Positions 2,142 through 12,956 of a stretch of DNA of 64,000 nucleotides are shown one piece after another. Source of the stretch: Rhodamnia argentea. Taxonomy: Eukaryota; Streptophyta; Magnoliopsida; Myrtales; Myrtaceae. Position numbers and translations under genes: made by a program. Under the pieces are notes generated by a model. That model had not been told where the DNA came from, did not search any database, and worked only from the letters and a program-made list of their open reading frames with translations. Each line of letters opens with the position of its first letter. Position 1 is the first letter of the stretch. The DNA lies in NCBI RefSeq assembly GCF_020921035.1, contig NC_063155.1:25971294-26035293 (forward strand), in the 5' to 3' direction.

Positions 2142-2150
2142 GGTTTTTGG
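2142..2150. repeat. 9-bp target-site duplication, left copy
   Basis: The sequence GGTTTTTGG lies directly outside the first base of the left TIR. The identical 9-mer follows the last base of the right TIR at 12948-12956. Nine base pairs is the standard Mutator-superfamily TSD length, so this pair fixes both ends of the element. Confidence 0.9.
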
Positions 2151-2256
2151 GGGTTTTTTTTCAATTTAATTTTTTTAAATTAAATATTTACGAAAATATT
2201 TTTTAAAAATAAATATTTACCGATTTGGGTCTCGCTCGGCGGTGGGTTTGCCGAGC
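2151..2256 (+). repeat. MULE left terminal inverted repeat
   Basis: It aligns in reverse complement with 12842-12947 over about 100 bp with only a few mismatches. It begins GGGTTTTTTTTC, continues through an AT-rich body and ends in GATTTGGGTCTCGCTCGGCG. A sharp AT-to-GC switch falls inside the TIR at about 2226. Confidence 0.9.
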
Positions 2257-2385
2257 GGCCGGGAGTGGGCCCGGCCTGCCCGCTCAGCAGCCCAACCGCC
2301 GAGCGGCTGGGCGGTGGGCCCTTTGCCCGCTCGGCGAGCCCATACCCGAGCGGCTGTGCGGCGGGCCCCGCCCCCGGCGGCTTTT
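2226..2385. repeat. GC-rich subterminal block with GCCGAG/CTCGGC motifs
   Basis: About 160 bp of very GC-rich DNA full of short inverted GCCGAGCGG / CCGCTCGGC words that can fold into many stems. A longer equivalent is at 12600-12870 near the other end. Subterminal repeated motifs in transposons often bind transposase. That role is inferred here. Confidence 0.75.
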
Positions 2386-3860
2386 TTTTTTTTTGTTTTC
2401 CTTTTTTAAGTGTTTTAATTATTTATATTTATAATATTTAGTTTATATCGTATATTTTTTAACATGTTATATTAGTAATAATTAATAGAAAAAATTGTTA
2501 AGATCTATAATTCATAAATAATGTTGTAATTATGTAATTAATTGAAAATATTCATAAAAAAAATTGGTAAGATATATGTTGAAAAAACAAATGCGAAAAC
2601 GAACACGGAACACAAGGATTTATGTCGTTCGATTAAGGTGATCTACGTCCACGGATGAGGCAAAACGAAATTGCACTATGATCAAGGAGAGTATAGATTA
2701 CGAAGTCGATTTTCGATCGAACAAAAGTACACGGCTCACTCGTCTCTCACATAAGGAAAATCTTCAATAGCAAACGAAAAGAAACTCTACCTGCAAAGTA
2801 TAAAAAATAGGGCACAAAAAGAATTTCTCGGGGCGTTGCCCCGAACCCGCACGCAAATATGTTCGCACCGCAAAGGAGATTTGTTCGCTTGCTCGAGTTG
2901 AGCCTATCGGCCCAATTCTCCGCATGATGAAGTAAATCTCAATTTTTCCTCCACTTTATGGGCCGCACAAAAATATGTCGAGTCGGGTGATAAACCGGAC
3001 CGGGTACATAAAATTCAAGACATATTTAACAATATATGAAATTAATTGAAAATATTCATAATATAAAATTGGTAAAATATTCATATAAATAATATTGTAA
3101 TTATGCAATTCAGTCGGCTAAAAAGATTGAAAGAAGAGGAAAGAGGGAAAAGAGGGTTCATTTGATATCAAGAAGTAGCACCGATGGGAGAAAAATGCAA
3201 AATTGACAAGGAAAACAGCCTTTTTCCCACACAAAAAGAAAAGCCCGGCTTTTTCCTAAAAAAACGCCGTTTTTCTTGTAATTATGTAATTAATTTAAAA
3301 TATTCATAAAATGAAATTGGTAAGATATATGAAAAAAAAATGAGATTTTCATAATATATTCATATATTGGACAGACATAAATCCAACCGGAAGGTGAAAT
3401 GGTGATGTGTCAACAACCGGCGGATAGGGTCGACGATATCAGATCGGGCTCAAATTCGGTCGACTGAAGGGAAACGGCGTCTTAATCAATATACATTGCC
3501 GTTGGCGGTGATGAACGATGGATTTTTGCGATTGGGGATTGTCTAGATGGGTTTTTCTATTTTTTTAGTATTTTGGGGATTTTTTAATTGCAGCTTTGTA
3601 ATTTTGGATTTTTAGAAATTATGAAAATCTCAATACTTAATATAAGTATCAATAATTAAAAAAATACGAAATGAAAAAAAGTTGGTAAGATATATAAAAA
3701 AAATATGTTGTAATTAATGTTAAAATTTATTAAAATATATAATTAATAAACAATATTGTAATTATGTAATTAATTGAAAGTATTCATAAAATAAAATTGG
3801 TAAGATATATGAAAAAAATGAGATTTTCATAATATATAACAATCGTCAACCGTAATTACA
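2386..3860. other. MULE left arm, non-coding
   Basis: AT-rich filler between the GC-rich block and the 3' end of the PMD gene. A short phrase of the type 'attaattgaaaatattcataa...aaattggtaagatat' recurs several times (near 2540, 3040, 3290 and 3765). At 2580-3010 lies a higher-complexity segment with an 'acacaaggattta...gatctacgtccacgg' stretch that looks like a separate repeat nested in the arm. No supported gene. Confidence 0.6.
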
Positions 3861-3864
3861 TATA

Positions 3865-6218
3865 CTAATGATGTTGTCCTCCTCTATGACCTCCTGTTCC
3901 GCAAGTAGGTCGTCTCCGTTGTTCGGGAAGTCTAGTATTGTACGGACGTCGAGGACGAGAATCCGGATGACTAGGATGTGTGGATGACGAAGGAATATCT
4001 TCTGCAAATATGCCCCGTCCGGATGGTACATATCCTACTGTATGAGGGTATTGAGAAAAAGGAGAGAAATCGGATCCATAAGGCTCGGCAGAAGTAGCTG
4101 GAGTCTGCAGCAGTGTATTGTCGGGATATTGAAAATCGGATCCCCCGTGAGATGGGCCTGCAAACCGTGAGAACCCCGGAGTGAAATTCGACGGCGAAAT
4201 CCCTGGAGTGAACCCCCGGAGTGAAATCTGATCGCCAAACCCCGGAGTGAACCCCGGAGTGAAATCGTCGTATGATACTCCAAGGGATAGGGGACGACAT
4301 GACCACCTGGATGATCTCGAGTAGCCCTCCGCATTGGCTGAACAGGTCTCGGGAGGGTCATCATCCTGCGGTCCAACGGGTCTTCTTGTAGTTGCTTGGT
4401 TGGGGCGGTGGCATCATTGTTAGCCGTCTTTCCTCATTACGAGCGTATAGCATTGCCCTAGCTATATTCCCCCTACTGCCCAGGATTGACGAGATGGGTT
4501 GACATTATGTATGATATGCAAAATTTGTTCAACGCCATCACCCCGATAATGATATCAAAAGTTATGAAATGATAATAGATCACGTTACTAAAAAATAATT
4601 AACGAATCAAATTGAAAGCATTTGCACGAACCGTTACACCCATTGCGGCCCCGGAATAGAAATCCACCTCCGGGTATGTCTACGGTACCACTCCATATAT
4701 CCTGAATGATAGTGAAGTGCCTCCGTTGCGGGATCACCATTGACAATGTAATCGACACGACGGTCCCACATATCAATGCACCGTCTGTGTTTACCTACCC
4801 AATCCTTGCCAACCGGCCTTAATTCAATATCATGCAACGCGGTATGATCACGCGGACGAGCGAGGTATTGGCTGCTGCATACCGAACCGACGAAGTACCC
4901 GATCTGGATAATACCACTCAACTATCCAAGAATGAGATGAGTGGGACACGAGCCCTCCAACTATCTTGTCCCCGCCGGCGGTAATATGGTAGAGCCTCCG
5001 AATGTCATTGGGGTATGGCTCCCAAATAATCTGGTATGGTAATAAAACATATTAAATTAAATCAATAATCAATTTATAAGCTAAAATTATATTAAACTTG
5101 TTGGTTTCTATCATTACTTACGTCTTCTGATCCCATTCTATCAAGTTAATAGCGTAAATGTGGCAACGTATGTGTAGGGACCTCCGTTGTCGGTAGGCCT
5201 TGACTCCATTGCATAAAAAAAAAATATGAGATTTTCATATATTATACGCCTTTGGAAAAAATTAATGACTGATGAACTAAAAAAATAATAGATCACTTAC
5301 CGACTACCGAGAGGTGCATCTTCTAAAGGATCACGATCGCCAAGGATGGGGCGACACATCGAAGCGCTCGCATGCCCAAATCTCGCAATACATGTAGGGC
5401 ACCTCCAATTTGATGTTTTGATGGATCGGTTGCACTACATAGCTCCCGATATAACCATGCAAGCGCTGCTGAACCCCAACCTGTACTTGCGTAGGGTTGT
5501 TGAGGTCCGCCAACAGTGGAAGAAATAGTAAACTAGCTCGTGCCCCTGATTTATCCGAAAAAATGCATCCTCCAATTAAACGGAGAATGAACGCCCTAGC
5601 ATGTTGTACTATCATAATGTCATCGGCATCCGGAGGGAGATCATCAAAGTGTTCTCTCAGCCAACTTAAGTTTATCTGCGTCCCACGCAAATTAGGCGGG
5701 CGAGCACCAAGTAGATCATCACAGAGAGTGCCCCGGTTAAAATCGGTACGGCCATGAATCGCACGTCCATCTATGGGCAGCCCCGTGATCACCGCTATAT
5801 CCTCAAGCGTAATCGTACATTCACCTTCCGGCATATGGAAGGTGTGGGTCTCGGGTCTCCACCGCTCGACCAACGCAGTAATCAAATGCCAATCTAACTG
5901 AAAATACCCCATCATATAAACTCCATAAAATCTCGAAGCTTGAAGGTACGGGAGTATGCGTTCATCAAGTTCATCTACGTGCAACATGGATCGCTGACAT
6001 CTAAGGAGTGCATTTTCATCTGCCTGTGAAATGTGATATGAACTGTTAGTAGCAATTTTGATATTGGGGTTACGAATGGCAAATGAACTACTAAATTTCT
6101 CAATTACCCGAGCGTTCCATACGGTCTCTGATCTATGTCGGGCCTGTCGTGTAAGTAGTGAATCATCCCGAGGTCCCGGCTGAATATGAGTCCTTTGTGC
6201 CATATCTACAATTGTCAT
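3865..6218 (-). pseudogene. Plant mobile domain (PMD-C, MAIN/MAIL1-like) gene carried by the MULE, degenerate
   Basis: The N-terminal 295 codons carry PMD hallmarks: YGVYMMGYFQLDWHLITALVERW, WRPETHTFHMP, GECTITLEDIAVITGLPIDG and the later LGSR motif. Downstream exons continue the domain: WEPYP, VEWYYPDRVLRRFGMQQPIP, DIELRPVGKDW and MEWYRRHTRR. The tail has FTPG repeats (about 4155-4275) and a basic Arg-rich end stopping at TAG 3865-3867. Splice sites visible: an 84-bp intron 6024-6107 (no stop, in frame), donor at 5300, donor at 5121, acceptor at 5031 and probable donor near 4640. Damage: a one-base frameshift near 5358, an in-frame TAA at 5146-5148 and a frameshift at about 4850-4880. PMD proteins of hosts act in gene silencing and genome stability. 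Transposon-borne ones have unknown roles. The assignment is firm; a functional product is unlikely unless the breaks are assembly errors. Confidence 0.85.
4155..4275 (-). repeat. Short tandem repeats coding FTPG units
   Basis: Imperfect repeats of a 12-15 bp 'ttcactccgggg' unit (minus strand) in the last PMD exon give a chain of Phe-Thr-Pro-Gly motifs. They lie between the PMD core and the Arg-rich C-terminus. Such low-complexity tails vary in unit number between copies. Confidence 0.75.
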
Positions 6219-6655
6219 ATTATCTCCATCATTAAATTGACATATCTAATGTACATATGGAACAGAAGCAATGAATAAATATCGTGCAACCGTGATATTA
6301 TAACATCACAATAAATTAATATATAAAAATCCGAAATTGCGAAATGAAATGCACATGCGGACGCCTAAACAAAACTCGAATGCAACGAAGCAAGATGATC
6401 CAGGATATCATAAAAACAAACATCACATAACCGAAAACCAAATTACACAACGAGTTCAACGAAAAGGGATACAGAAGTACGAGGTTCGAAGCTTACAACA
6501 AAAAACTACCAAAAGAAATCCCACAGACGTGTCCAAATACGAACGCAATCCTACGAGGGCATAAAAAGGTAGATAATATAGCTACACAACGAGGTCGGGC
6601 CACTATTCTCGGATAAGTCCTCATCGCCTAGCGGGTCGTAATCCGTAAATGCGTC

Positions 6656-7177
6656 TCACTCTTCAGCTTCTTCAGGGTCGGACTCGTGCTCCATCTCGGG
6701 CTCGGGCTCGGGCTCTGACTCGGAATCCAGTGGCTCGTTGAACTCGTCCATCAATGCCTGCTCGAACTCGGTGGGCTCCTCCGACTCTGCATCGCCATCT
6801 ACAACCTCTACTGCTTGGGTCTCCTCTATCGGCTCCGGGTCGGACTCCATTGGTTCTTCGGCGTCCTCCTCCTCCATCGATTCGGTGTCCGGGTTCTCGA
6901 CTTCTCCATTTCGGGGCAAGCACTCGGTAGGGTCCAACTCCATGGGGTCTCCTTGCTCGTCCTCGTCATAGGGCACGCCATAAATTTGAAGGGGTCCACC
7001 CATTCCTTCTTCTGCTCCCTTAGTCCGGGCCAAAAAGGTAGACTCTTCCCAAGCTCCACCTCTTACGTCTATCCACACGGTGCTAAGATTCCTATAGTAC
7101 ACCCTACCATCACCTAATACATATTTTGTCACTATGCGATCGATCCGTCTCGGTATCCCAAAAAGCGGCGGCGGCAT
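6656..7177 (-). CDS. Acidic 173-aa protein of unknown function carried by the MULE
   Basis: An uninterrupted frame between the PMD gene and the transposase on the same strand. Residues 1-85 look like a compact globular segment (IDRIVTKYVLGDGRVYYRN, TVWIDVRGGAWEESTF). The remaining half is extremely acidic with Glu-Pro repeats near the end. There is no signal peptide, membrane segment or cysteine cluster. I do not recognise the family. It could be a third transposon gene, an extra exon of one of the neighbours, or captured host sequence. A longer open frame overlaps its start upstream (to 7328), so the true start or a spliced 5' exon is uncertain. The coherent N-terminal half argues that the frame is or was coding. 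Confidence 0.5.
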   Translation of the reverse strand: MPPPLFGIPRRIDRIVTKYVLGDGRVYYRNLSTVWIDVRGGAWEESTFLARTKGAEEGMGGPLQIYGVPYDEDEQGDPMELDPTECLPRNGEVENPDTESMEEEDAEEPMESDPEPIEETQAVEVVDGDAESEEPTEFEQALMDEFNEPLDSESEPEPEPEMEHESDPEEAEE

Positions 7178-7620
7178 CTTCGTGGTCGGTGGTCCGAAAA
7201 GTGGGTCCCACGAAGGGGTGAGATAAAAATCCCGATGAAGGTGGATCTAAGCCGACCCTAGGGTATAGTACCTCCGAGCTAATCAAACCAAGATATATAA
7301 TCCAAGACACACAAACAACCCAAATCAATATGAAATCAATTCAAAACTGACGACACACACTCTCTTAATCCCGCAGTCAAACTTCTATACTATGGTACTT
7401 TGGACTTCGGGCATTACCGCAATTCGATCACACGTGGTATCAACATCAAGTAGTCCATTTTCGGGCCCGCGTATCAACGCTTCGGGCTCATAACACATCC
7501 TCTCAAACATCTAGCCCGCGTAACCACGCATCGGGCTTAAAATACGCACTTTCATAAGTTCATAATATAAAATGTTAGGATAGTCACAGAGATTCTCAAC
7601 TCGATGGGCGGGCCCGCGTG
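7178..7620. other. MULE spacer between acidic ORF and transposase
   Basis: About 440 bp with repeated 'cgggc...gcgt' words (7440-7615: 'tcgggcccgcgt', 'agcccgcgt', 'cgggcccgcgtg'). No supported ORF. It may hold the 3'UTR of the transposase and 5' sequence of the acidic ORF. Confidence 0.5.
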
Positions 7621-10159
7621 TTAACACGACCTGTGTGTACAAGTACTCCTATTATGCCCCGATTTCCCACATATCGAGCAATGGATGCGGGAATTGCTAC
7701 AACTCGGTGTCCTCCAGTCCATCTCATTACGTATACGTGATGCACGGGGCCTTCCTTTATTCCTAATGCGTCTCGGGTCCGGTACTAATGGCGGTGCGTC
7801 AGGTTCGGACCAGTACTCAACATGCCCCAACGGATAAAACATATACCGATAGCACTGAAGAGTTTTATCCAGCGTGTAGCACTCATCTACGTATAGCTCG
7901 TAATCAATTCCATATGCTTGACATCTTGCAATTACGTGGGAACATGGAATTTTAATCTCTTGAAATTTTCCACATGTGCACGTTCGCAGGTCTAGGCGCA
8001 CTATCTGTTTATGGCCCCCTGATCCTCTTGATCCGTCACGTCCAGTTTTAACTTCGAAAATCCCTCCATCGTAGTCGAAACATGTAACTTCGTGCCTATT
8101 TGCACGTTGACTGTTTTCCCCGAGTGTTTGACCAGCAAAATGTGTAAATACATGTTGTTGGTCCTTTCGCATCCTGTACTTTGTTCTTCTTGTATCAAAA
8201 TAGTGGACCAACCGATAGAATATCTTCTCCACCATAGCTTTTATTGGCGGACCACGATAACCCTTCAACATGCCATTGATCGATTCAACTAAATTTGTTG
8301 TCATCGCTCCATATCTTCTCCCTTCATCATAAGCCTTCGTCCATTTGTCCCTTGGAATCTGGTCACACCATGCAGGTGTGCGTGCATCCATACCCCTAAT
8401 TTCGTTCATGATACTCACGAACTTTCGTTGTTGATTCGCGTAAGCTGTATATTACAATAATAATTAGTATTTCCTTCTCAAATATTGTCAATACGTATTT
8501 TCATCAAATTTTAAAATTTCAAAATTCACCTGCCGCTTCAATAAGGGCTTTGCCTTCGGCATTTTTGAATTGTCTGTTATAGTTGCTTACAAGATGACGA
8601 ACGCAATATTCGTGGTAGCCATATGGAGGACGCCACTCTGCTTGTCTCCATTGCTCTTTTAATCCCCATATGTCTGTCGATATTACACAAATATTATCCC
8701 TACTAGTAACATATGTCCGCAACAAAGTCATAAACCAACTCCAATTATCAATATCTTCCCGATCGACTACAACAAATGCCAACGGGAATATATGGTTGTC
8801 GCCATCAAGTGAGGCCGCTACAATGAGTGTTCCTCGGTATTTCCCGTACAAATGAGTACCATCAACAAATATCACGGGCCGACAACTTGCGAAGCCTTCA
8901 ATCGTTTGCTTGAAAGTCCAAAACATCCGGTTGAAAACGGTGCAGCTTTGATCTACGTTCATGTGATCATCGATCACAAAATAAGAACCTGGATTCCTTA
9001 CCATCATTTCGGTCATGAACTTTCTCAACATACCGTACGACTCATCCCATCCTCCAAAAGCTTCGGCAATCGCCATTTGTTTAGCTGCCCGGGTTTTACG
9101 ATAAGTAGGTTCGAAATGCAGCTTGTCTTGAATCTCCGCCATGAGTGCCTTGATTCTGATATCCGGTTGGGCGGTAACCATTGCTTTTATCTGGCTGCAT
9201 ATGTATCTCTGATCAAGTTGTCGATGATCCCGTGACATTTGAGGATGACTACATGTGTGTGGCCCATTGTACTTAACTATTTTCCAAAATAGGGTACCCG
9301 CTTTATTAGACGCGCGGAGCCTCCAATCACATGGTCCATTCAAATTACCGCACCTTATCACATATTGGGACTTATTTGTGACATCGCTGCGAAAGCTCTG
9401 ATTTCTTATCGGAGAGTACTCTTTCGCAGCCAACCGTAACGCGTCCCGTGATGGAAATAACATGCCAACATCAAATTCTTTTGATGGATCAAATAACATA
9501 CGTCCCGGCTTGGCTCTTATATCGACTTGCATCATATCAAAGTCGATCTCTGAATATGGCGGCGGATGTACCAACGGCAATATGGGATTACTACAATGGG
9601 TGTTGTAGTAAGCCTCCATATTGTCACCTTCGATATCTTCCTCATCATTGTCATCACTATCTATCCATTCATCATCTTCTTCATCGTTATCATCTCCATC
9701 ATTATCATCATTATCATCTCCATCATTATCATCATTATGATAAGGGTCCAAGTACTGATTATGCACGCCAACTTCATCTTTATCGATATTACAACCTTCC
9801 TCAGCTGAATCATTTATCACTTGGTTTTCAGCTATAGTTGCATAAAACTGTAAAAACCCCGTAGCACCGGTCTCAAGTGCAAATTGCTTGATCATCCTAA
9901 CGGTACCATCATCACGCACATCCGTTATGTCGTATATGACACAATTCGATGTTAAAATCGGGAATCTATATATCAGCTTATGAATATACTGGTTGGGTGT
10001 TATATTCAACGCGCTCTCTATCGTAGCACGTAACTCATCAAATGTTGATATGTTTGCAAACTCGAACATGATAGATTGTCCGCCTTCGTAATCATGTCCA
10101 TATTCTGTTTGCACTATTCTACCTCCCAAGTATACAATCGCAACTAATGAAGATGACAT
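7621..10159 (-). CDS. MuDR/MURA-type transposase, intact
   Basis: Two exons, 10159-8530 and 8444-7621, joined over an 85-bp GT-AG intron (8445-8529). The join gives the expected EAAAYANQQRKF sequence and an 817-aa product. Domains in order: a variable acidic N-terminus (about 1-240), a MuDR-family DNA-binding region with CGNLNGPCDWRL (about 240-400) and the MULE catalytic domain. The likely DDE residues are D433 (VDGTHLYGKY), D496 (ISTDIWG) and E597 (NLVES). A SWIM zinc finger (CTC...CSH, about 699-713) and a CCHC knuckle C799-C802-H807-C812 follow. The usual SDRH around the second Asp is STDI here. A splice-acceptor-like TTTAGCAG sits just before the ATG, so a 5'UTR intron is possible. Transposase recognises the TIRs and cuts and pastes the element. 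The frame has no break, so it could be active. Confidence 0.93.
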
Positions 10160-10530
10160 TCTGCTAAATAAAAAAATTACAAATTATTTCGCACATACAA
10201 TTCAGTAAACATTGTCCCGAGCTCATTAACAAATTAATATTATAACAATTAATATATCAAATGAAATGAAATAAATGTATCATATATTCCTAATGATTTG
10301 CATGGGGAAATAAAAAAAAAATTCAGAGCCAATTTGTCAAAAAGGGAAAAATCTTCATTTTCAAAAGCACGGACAGTCAAATTACCGAAATAAGGATTTG
10401 CCTAGTTAATTGTGGCCGTTTACTATTTTTCAGGATTTCTCGATATTTTACCCTTTTTTTTTTTGGAGAAATTTTCCCATAAGAGAAAAATTGTTATTTT
10501 ATTAAAATCGGCAGCCCAACATCAATAATA
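10160..10530. other. MULE right arm, transposase upstream region
   Basis: AT-rich DNA just 5' of the transposase start and the likely location of its promoter and 5'UTR. Monomers of the array that follows begin to appear from about 10410. No ORF and no clear TATA choice can be made among many AT runs. Confidence 0.45.
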
Positions 10531-10534
10531 GTCC

Positions 10535-11442
10535 ATGGCCGATTGATTTTGCCATTTACTATTTTTCGGGATTTCTCGAAATTTTACCTATTTTTTTGAG
10601 ACATATTTTCCCAAAATGCCAAAATTGTTATTTTCTTTTAAATCGGGGGCCGAATATCAATAATAGTTCATGACCAGTAGATTGTGGCCATTTACTCTTT
10701 TTCAGGATTTCTCGAAATTTTATTCATTTTTTTGGGAGAGATTTTCCCGGAATTGCAAAATTGAGATTTTTTCCTAATTTATTTTTTTAAAAAAGTATTT
10801 ACTAAATTATTTTAAAAAAATTTGATTGTGGCCATTTACTCTTCCACGGCCGAGCGAGGCCCAAATTTGTAAATATTTTTTTTATAAATTAATTTAGTAA
10901 ATACTTTAAAAAAAAAATTAATTTGGAAAAAAACCTGCAAAATTCTTATTTTTTTTAAAATCGGGGGCCAAATATCCATAATATTCCATGGCCAGTTGAT
11001 TTTTCCATTTACTATTTTTCGGGATTTCTCGAAATTTTACCTATTTTTTTGGGACATATTTTCCCAAAATGCCAAAATTGTTATTTTCTTTTAAATCGGG
11101 AGCCGAATATCAATAATAGTCCATCACCAGTAGATTGTGGCCATTTACTCTTTTTCAGGATTTCTCTAAATTTTATTCATTTTTTTGGGAGAGATTTTCC
11201 CGAATGGCAAAATTGGGGTTTTTTCCTAATTTATTTTTTAAAAAAGTATATACTAAATTATTTTAAAAAAAATTGATTGTGGCCATTTACTCTTCCACGG
11301 CCGAACGAGGCCCAAATTTGTAAATATTTTTTTATAAATTGATTTACTAAATACTTTTTTACAAAAATTAAATTGGAAAGAAACCCGCAAAATTCTTATT
11401 TTTTTTAAAATCGGGGGCCAAATATCCATAATATTCCATGGC
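10535..11442. repeat. Tandem duplication, about 450-bp unit x2, built of about 130-bp sub-repeats and hairpins
   Basis: Two copies offset by 450-453 bp (ccatttactatttttcggg at 10552 and 11005; ccataatattccatggc at about 10977 and 11427). Inside each copy a sub-repeat of about 130 bp ('ccatttact.tttttc.ggatttctcgaaatttta') recurs, also once more upstream near 10413. Each copy also has a stem formed by 'aaaaaagtatttactaaat' and its inverse around a 'ggccgagcgaggcccaaatttgtaaatat' core that resembles the inner part of the TIR. Confidence 0.85.
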
Positions 11443-12599
11443 ATTTCATTGTGACCATTGCAGCATTGAATTCTTCAAATTTTCAATGATTTTTTCCTAT
11501 TGTTTTCTTTTCTATGCTTTTTTATCAATTTTTAATTTTTTTATTTTCTTTTTCCGAATTTTCAAATTATTTTAAAAAATTATTTTTTTGCACTTGGGTC
11601 AAATTCGGAATGCAATTCTCGGGTCACTCGATAACCTAAAAATGAATATGGACATAATTGTGAAAATGAGTCCAAAAAAAATTTAACCACATTAGGCGAA
11701 ACTTTTTTATTTTCCCTGTCTCCAAGTACGGCTCTACCTATTAATTTTTTTTTTAAATAGAGCGCTACAAAAAATCATGAAGGAGAACACGATAACATAC
11801 TTCGACATAGGGTAAATAAAAAAATTCGCCCTAATCTCGTTGATTTTTTTTTAATCGGGTCAAATGCGGTCCACACTTCTCGTATTGGCTATCGATAACC
11901 CTTTTTTAAGTTATTTTCCTAAAAATTTATTTTAAACTTTTAAAACAAAATTTACATTCACAACAATTTAAAAAAATTTACTAATAACCTATATGTAACA
12001 TACATGATTCAGATATAAATAACAATCACATAAATAAATCTACACTTACGAAACTCGTAAAAAATAATAAAAAGAAATTTACCTCAAATTATCGAGAGAG
12101 CGCACGCACCGAATGAGGAGCTCAAACTGTCAAGAAAAAGTACCGAATTAATTTAAATATTAATATAAAAACGTAGTACTAACAACATATAAATAAAAAT
12201 TCATACTTAACTATAAAGAAATGTGTCTAAGGAAGAGCGTTTGCGGGACAGGAAGAGCGTCTAAGAGAGAGACAGTTTGAAAGAGGGAAGAAATGAGAGA
12301 ATGTTTTGAGACGGACGAAAAACGTTTGAAAGAGAGGGAGAGCGACAAAGCGTTTCCAAAAAGAGAAGAAATGAGAGAAGGAGAGGAAGAAAGAATTTAA
12401 AGAAGTGAAGAGAAGAGCAGCAGAAAATCTGGAGTATTTTGCGTCTTGTAGCGTCTGACGCCGCAAGACGCAAAATGCGGGGGAGAGGAGAGCCCCTACT
12501 CTTTCGCGGCACAAACTCACGCGAGGAGACCGCCACACGGAAAATGGGGACAGCGGCACGGAGGAGAGGGGGAGGGGGGCACGGAAGAGAGGGGAAGGG
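11443..12599. other. MULE right arm, non-coding
   Basis: Mostly AT-rich DNA, then a purine-rich stretch (12225-12440) with many gaaagag/gagagag runs, leading into the GC-rich subterminal block. The overlapping open frames here are low-complexity and have no domain. Confidence 0.5.
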
Positions 12600-12870
12600 G
12601 GGGGCGACACGTGGGGGGAGGGGGGCGGGCACCCGCGGCACTGGTCCGCCGAGCGGGGAGGTAGGGGCCCCGGCCCGCTCGCCAGTGGCTGGCCGGCGAG
12701 CCGGCCCGAGGCCCCCCCACCCGTCCGCTCGGCAGTTCAACCGCCGAGCGGCCCCGGCGGGGGCCCACCACCGCCCTAGCTCGCGGCCCAGGCTGCCGAG
12801 CGATCCCTTGCTCGGCGGCCTAGGCTGGCTGAGCGGGTCTCGCTCGGCACCCCAACCGCCGAGCGAGACC
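12600..12870. repeat. GC-rich subterminal block, right side
   Basis: About 270 bp, extremely GC-rich and dense in CCGCTCGGC / GCCGAGCGG inverted words. It mirrors 2226-2385 near the left end. Multiple overlapping frames on both strands here are composition artefacts. Confidence 0.75.
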
Positions 12871-12947
12871 CAAATCGGTAAATATTTATTTTTAAAAAAT
12901 ATTTTCGTAAATATTTAATTTAAAAAAATTAAATTGGAAAAAAACCC
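12842..12947 (-). repeat. MULE right terminal inverted repeat
   Basis: Reverse complement of the left TIR at 2151-2256 with few differences. It ends ...GGAAAAAAACCC at 12947 and is followed at once by the 9-bp TSD. Confidence 0.9.
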
Positions 12948-12956
12948 GGTTTTTGG
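12948..12956. repeat. 9-bp target-site duplication, right copy
   Basis: GGTTTTTGG, identical to 2142-2150. It marks the outer edge of the MULE. Confidence 0.9.

Follow-up and report, generated by a model that had tools for sequence, protein, structure and literature searches.

A 64,000-bp stretch of the Rhodamnia argentea genome (C6:25971294-26035293 of the host assembly; from here on the window) contains a Mutator-like element (MULE) of 10,797 bp, at 2151-12947, in which most of the third open reading frame (ORF), ORF3, is shared with the long terminal repeats (LTRs) of a retrotransposon. We hold it very probable that this is a young multi-copy MULE with a MuDR-type transposase, a PMD gene and a foreign ORF3 that came from a Ty3/gypsy LTR family. 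Transposase and PMD in a MULE are already known; the unusual part is an LTR gene replacing a homologous third gene.

An LTR-shared cassette in the third gene

A preceding sequence-only reading of the window had described a third acidic ORF and proposed the element, with all its parts collinear, as a type specimen. The ORF is present (6656-7177, minus strand, 173 aa, with a predicted beta-rich N-terminal domain and an acidic tail) and a Pfam scan of it gave no hit, but it is not native: its last ~16 codons are MULE sequence, the rest belongs to an LTR-derived cassette, and five similar full-length copies carry a different ORF3. The cassette spans 857 bp (6701-7557, minus strand) and comprises ORF3 minus its 3′ end plus ~380 bp upstream. 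Among 12 full-length copies, the window's included, seven carry this type (A) and five another (B; the fifth, C9c, was typed by a type-B search). Compared in 200-bp steps with four B copies, the window copy is 84-100% identical outside the cassette (mostly 95-100%, with the lows beside the terminal inverted repeats, TIRs) and ~52-66% identical inside ~6700-7550, with sharp edges, and the A and B proteins share 43-47% amino acid identity where compared. Divergence of ORF3 by point mutation was rejected in favor of block replacement with sharp edges, and so was the reading of the 76% ORF3 identity of copy C9a as divergence, which is a frame-shift effect in DNA that is 96% identical.

Both junctions can be located. 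The downstream one (6707-6721, minus strand) is a short homology, GAGTC(A/C)GAGCCCGAG, common to the LTR and the B-type MULE; this edge falls within the ORF3 acidic tail, and ORF3-A ends with ~16 B-type residues. The upstream one (7551-7557, minus strand) is a microhomology, TTATGAA, common to the LTR and to A- and B-type MULEs. Seven A copies on six contigs have the same two junctions, each with its own target site duplication (TSD), and an eighth locus matches across both.

The source of the cassette was sought in the host assembly (346.7 Mb in 74 contigs, the large ones, C1-C11, being ~24-37 Mb each, which suggests some 11 chromosomes). With the A interval as query and the best 40 of 196 candidates scored, we found eight MULE loci and at least 19 loci whose matches, 88-96% identical, cover exactly query 44-900 (window 6701-7557), along with further loci over other intervals. 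The cassette is ~96% identical to the inside of 3.5-kb Ty3/gypsy LTRs, and the agreement between MULE and LTR ends at the cassette edges. At C4:3432600-3449599 the segment occurs twice, within 3.54-kb direct repeats that are 97.2% identical, begin with TGTGACATTC, end with GTGACA and are flanked by AATTG/AATTG (5 bp); the first repeat is followed by the primer-site-like TGGTATCAGAGC, and gag (PF03732) and reverse transcriptase (PF00078) lie between the two. This element thus shows the paired LTRs, TG..CA ends, 5-bp TSD, primer binding site, gag and reverse transcriptase of a Ty3/gypsy element, and its long LTRs hint that the donor family may belong to the Tekay/Del lineage. A second element, at C8:12.35 Mb, for which only the LTR pairing and ends were examined, has an ORF3 inside paired ~3.2-kb repeats (pieces 93.5 and 95.3% identical) with 5-bp flanks one base apart (TAGCG/TAGCA), and this ORF3 is quite different, at 34% amino acid identity to the window's. 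A TATA-like run precedes the ORF by ~440 bp in the C4 LTR and by ~480-490 bp in the C8 LTR, so that the ORF may be the first one on the retroelement RNA.

Two observations from the same surroundings are recorded here. Just downstream of the C4 LTR element lies a long array of ~165-bp tandem units that is open over hundreds of codons (~5029-8646 of locus L041, C4:3.446-3.449 Mb). Copy C4a (L027/L028) has, at ~window 7600-7660, a ~160-bp insertion beginning with TGTGACATTCCGAATTTCGACC, like a gypsy LTR start; it gave no significant full-length match to the LTRs compared, and is perhaps another small LTR piece beside ORF3.

The ORF3 family, direction of transfer and rival explanations

A genome search with ORF3 returned at least 151 matches (best 150 of 1051 candidates scored). 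We retrieved 20 more homologues; the 25-sequence alignment omits two of them, which frame breaks cut short, and the 25-row tree omits four. Over 19 pairs the ratio of nonsynonymous to synonymous substitution (dN/dS) is 0.12-0.50, with dS up to saturation: 0.16-0.50 in 15 LTR-type pairs, 0.34-0.35 in two further pairs, and 0.12 and 0.18 between MULE type B and the LTR-type ORF L060, where dS is near saturation. These sequence-based estimates indicate that the ORF3 family is under purifying selection among these relatives. Structure prediction gives a small beta sheet with modest confidence (mean pLDDT 58 and 61), the beta core having block means of ~74-85 and the acidic tail scoring low. A Foldseek search of the models against the PDB gave no match at E≤0.001, a sequence search of the PDB nothing better than one nanobody at E 0.99, and a Pfam scan of five LTR-type ORFs one sub-threshold hit and none above cut-off.

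On the ORF3 tree the MULE label has to change twice, as the starred branches require, which gives two separate MULE origins; one change sufficed in 0% of 200 bootstrap trees, and the placement of the long branch L063 is unsure. Type A is confined to near-identical MULE copies. Of the 20 best-ranked type-B loci (71-100% identity), 17 could be assigned to MULEs, 15 through a neighboring transposase match, paired by eye, and two through other comparisons; three are unplaced. Past the common stop the in-frame MULE sequence still resembles, by eye, the longer tail of L060, and type B therefore looks like an older capture. A third LTR-like cassette (A′), ~76-78% identical to the C4 LTR, stands in place of ORF3 in copies at C11:9.16 Mb and C2:15.94 Mb, whose MULE flanks are 89-97% identical to the window's; here the B-type upstream region is kept and the cassette ends with GGACACGGGGCGTGACA, the LTR terminus. 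A more diverged copy, at C3:24.88 Mb, gives a less clear picture. On this evidence LTR sequence would have entered the ORF3 slot at least twice, probably three times.

From the junctions and the distribution of types we infer both the direction, from LTR to MULE, and the process. An ancestral MULE would have held an LTR-type ORF (type B), most of which an 857-bp inner LTR piece would then have replaced in the window's lineage, giving type A. The new piece would have been joined on at the two short homologies. Template switching while a broken or excised copy was being repaired would be the simplest process for this, and the resulting chimaera would have spread to the eight places where it is now found. 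Cut-and-paste transposition is the MULE mode and is presumed to be that of the window element as well.

Several points weigh against this account. The flank tree (C3b left out) lacks a strongly supported A clade, although four columns are fixed in A alone, so that a single capture with later gene conversion among the copies is possible. The A cassettes are 0-1.3% apart from one another and 1.3-2.8% from four LTR copies outside CG/CHG, so none of these four is the direct donor. The position of the ORF inside paired LTRs was checked at two elements (C4 and C8); most of the 20 homologues were fetched as ORFs, and for most of them the LTR label denotes family membership rather than a place-by-place check. 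The grouping of four LTR-type ORFs (L044, L046, L062 and L060) with MULE type B fits either direction of transfer. The dN/dS of the MULE's own genes against older copies is mildly low, at 0.53-0.81 for the transposase (the comparison with the partial copy C3b, whose values point to a failed alignment, is left out) and 0.35-0.66 for PMD. The clustering of short indels at CAG/CTG described below is weaker in B copies (16/55, 29%, against a 7% background).

For ORF3 we tentatively suggest an accessory role: the protein might protect the genes of the element from host silencing or act in chromatin, a purpose that PMD might share, as has been speculated by others. A wider form of this idea, which we think unlikely although worth stating, is that the LTRs encode a conserved small silencing-resisting protein of which MULEs repeatedly swap in versions (B, A, A′), so that one counter-defence gene would be shared and renewed across two transposon classes, much as phages share anti-defence genes.

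It is quite possible, on the other hand, that ORF3 is a functionless passenger and that neutral ectopic recombination accounts for the replacements. With LTR-like sequence already in the slot and related LTR loci abundant, gene conversion or LTR insertion would occasionally overwrite it, which agrees with the homology at the cassette junctions, with the two older copies in which the LTR segment ends at the LTR terminus and replaces the ORF, with the stops in ORF3 of three A′-like copies and with the mildly low dN/dS of the MULE. What neutrality explains less well is the dN/dS of 0.12-0.18 between type B and its nearest LTR relative tested (dS near saturation), and the frame of the A chimaera, which is open through the downstream junction in the window copy, C5b and C2.

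That LTR retrotransposons instead took the ORF from a MULE is improbable. The four LTR-type ORFs that group with type B could be read this way, but homologues that belong to neither MULE type are the larger and more varied group among the matches listed and occur on either side of the tree, type A, though young in the MULE, matches at least 19 further loci over the same interval, and the MULE sequence past the ORF3 stop is still like the LTR ORF tail. Still less probable is an ordinary PMD-bearing MULE with a native third gene, the LTR copies being later insertions of MULE pieces: PMD and an unknown ORF are tabulated for another MULE group (PMC6446971), but the ORF lies within both LTRs at two elements with different ORF types, and L041, L042 and L044 have it without any other MULE part. 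An assembly artefact, in which repeat collapse stitched in the A cassette, is the least credible, for although base-level noise at CAG/CTG is visible and the cassette is repetitive, the same junctions recur in seven copies on six contigs with their own TSDs and in the eighth match.

Structure, copies and age of the element

Apart from ORF3, the element is much as the sequence-only reading had it. That reading had fixed the ends of a complete MULE to the base and described TIRs of about 100 bp with few mismatches, and both statements hold: exact 9-bp copies of GGTTTTTGG, at 2142-2150 and 12948-12956, abut the element and form the longest match within the neighbourhood scanned around its ends, and the TIRs, of 107 bp each (2151-2257, plus strand, and 12841-12947, minus strand), are 96% complementary. 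The 9-bp TSD, the long TIRs and the transposase domains together identify it as a MULE. A search with the joined flanks for an empty site gave 13 matches, none of them across both flanks except, in pieces, the window itself. Upstream of the transposase lie tandem repeats of ~450 bp (10486-11422), the amount of which differs from copy to copy, part being missing in C5b and ~451 bp being extra in C1; they include TIR-like stretches on the minus strand at 10849-10935 (~84% to the TIR) and 11300-11386 (~81%), and might be regulatory or alternative ends.

The transposase (817 aa, minus strand) is open as assembled across an 85-bp GT..AG intron (8445-8529, GTGAAT..ATACAG, with the same ends in 11/11 copies). 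Exon 1 (8530-10159) holds the DBD_Tnp_Mut domain (PF03108, 28.1 bits against a cut-off of 25) and the MULE DDE domain (PF10551, 44.1 against 27.6), and exon 2 (7621-8444), with the stop, the SWIM zinc finger (PF04434, 28.3 against 19.6). The domains and the uninterrupted frame claimed earlier are thus there, and the window copy is the only fully open one among the 11, but it differs from most copies by a gap and a gain of one base each, ~30 bp apart, near 8676 and 8642. These compensate each other and scramble a stretch over what we take to be the second catalytic Asp motif, which may be base-calling noise.

The PMD gene also stands in part. Its first exon (5300-6218, minus strand) matches PF10536 (E=1.9e-34 on the 5331-6245 frame, profile positions 2-150 of 347), but in the window copy it is frame-shifted as assembled by about five one-base indels relative to other copies, and it is open in 2/11 copies; in the partial copy C3b the PMD majority frame has three stops. 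An open frame at 3865-4413 (minus strand) is the probable last PMD exon, assigned from its place without a Pfam hit; L043 has a 75% match at the corresponding place. PMD genes were already known to travel with MULEs, as two papers report: a 2019 survey lists PMD for several MULE groups, one of them with 'unknown ORF and PMD' (PMC6446971), and a 2017 paper describes PMD capture by MULEs and speculates on an anti-silencing role (PMC5418596).

Other copies with the same TIR pair, on whose existence the sequence-only reading had made itself depend, are plentiful. A 201-bp left-end query gave at least 53 matches at E≤0.001 (best 40 of 451 candidates scored), and convergent pairs of TIR matches yielded ten further full-length copies, to which an eleventh was added; an exact 9-bp TSD abuts the TIRs in every one of these 12 copies, that of the window among them. 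Transposase exon 1 as query finds at least 105 matches (best 80 of 592 candidates scored), so that the family is large and graded. Overall identity is 97.4-98.4% among cassette-A copies and 94.1-95.3% between these and the other group. Shorter sequences with the same termini, of 347 bp (L039, C2:22698191-22699537, no clear TSD), 1549 bp (L040, C6:2651836-2654384, flanks nearly matching) and 1666 bp (L037, C4:8631625-8641624, no clear TSD), are probably non-autonomous derivatives. At C9:15330000-15348895 (L033, L031) an A-type MULE copy has internal losses, and its left end was not found within the stretch read.

Near-identical TIRs had been taken as a sign of recent transposition, a use of TIR identity that the copies do not bear out. 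The two TIRs of the window copy differ at 4% of positions, and in five of ten other copies (C3, C5a, C5b, C8b and C9a, all with cassette A) the ends are 99-100% identical to the window's left and right TIR respectively; the other five are mixed, without a clean left/right split. Since the same split recurs, the difference is inherited in these copies, and TIR similarity, which we rejected as a measure of age, is useless as a clock. Youth is supported instead by divergence between copies. Outside CG/CHG the window copy has five private substitutions in 4385 bp (0.11%), against 0.11-0.27% in six other A copies and 0.39-0.62% in four B copies. At a plant substitution rate of ~7e-9 per site and year its age is of the order of 0.2 million years, a figure that rises in slow-evolving trees.

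Much of the private difference between copies is noise. In A copies 31/64 short indels (48%) lie within 1 bp of CAG/CTG, against an 8% background, a clustering that is probably base-calling error at CHG-methylated sites and makes reading frames of repeats in this assembly unreliable. We therefore rejected frame breaks as evidence of decay, the short private indels being located at CAG/CTG, and neither intactness nor decay of transposase and PMD can be asserted through this noise. The possible activity suggested for the family is unproven: as assembled, 0/11 copies combine an open transposase with an open first exon of PMD; C-to-T changes are moreover enriched at CG (54% against 19% in A copies), which suggests that the copies are methylated.

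Comparison with known systems

Extra genes of plant transposons are often assumed to be host-derived. Here the donor is a transposon of a different class, which suggests that unrelated genomic parasites would swap genes. Because the replacement is recent, both junctions can still be read at base level, and before (B) and after (A) coexist in one genome; gene exchange between class I and class II elements thereby becomes directly testable. The finding also points to a conserved protein family hidden in LTRs, which are usually treated as noncoding. In the literature covered by our searches neither a conserved ORF within the LTRs of plant gypsy elements nor an LTR-to-MULE gene transfer was reported; host genes nested in maize retrotransposons (PMC1560396) are a different thing.

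As far as the accessible portions of the sources go, four systems come closest. PMD-bearing MULEs (PMC6446971, PMC5418596) are alike in their SWIM transposase, 9-bp TSD and PMD gene, but an extra ORF that is traceable to LTRs and replaced between near-identical copies is not described in those portions. VANDAL elements with the anti-silencing protein VANC (PMC10398659, PMC5735166) are likewise MULEs with extra genes, and their fast divergence is tied to noncoding tandem repeats; the window element, in contrast, has long TIRs and an ORF3 that no Pfam family matched. Pack-MULEs and transduplication (PMC13317346) share the uptake of outside DNA into a MULE, whereas the donor here is an LTR and not a host gene, and a transposase-bearing element replaced its own homologous gene. 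Additional ORFs of plant Ty3/gypsy elements (PMC7264820, PMC9289625) are comparable as extra coding sequence, and a term search of the available text of PMC7264820 for wording on an LTR-located ORF found nothing; in the family described here the ORF lies inside the LTR itself and is therefore present twice per element.

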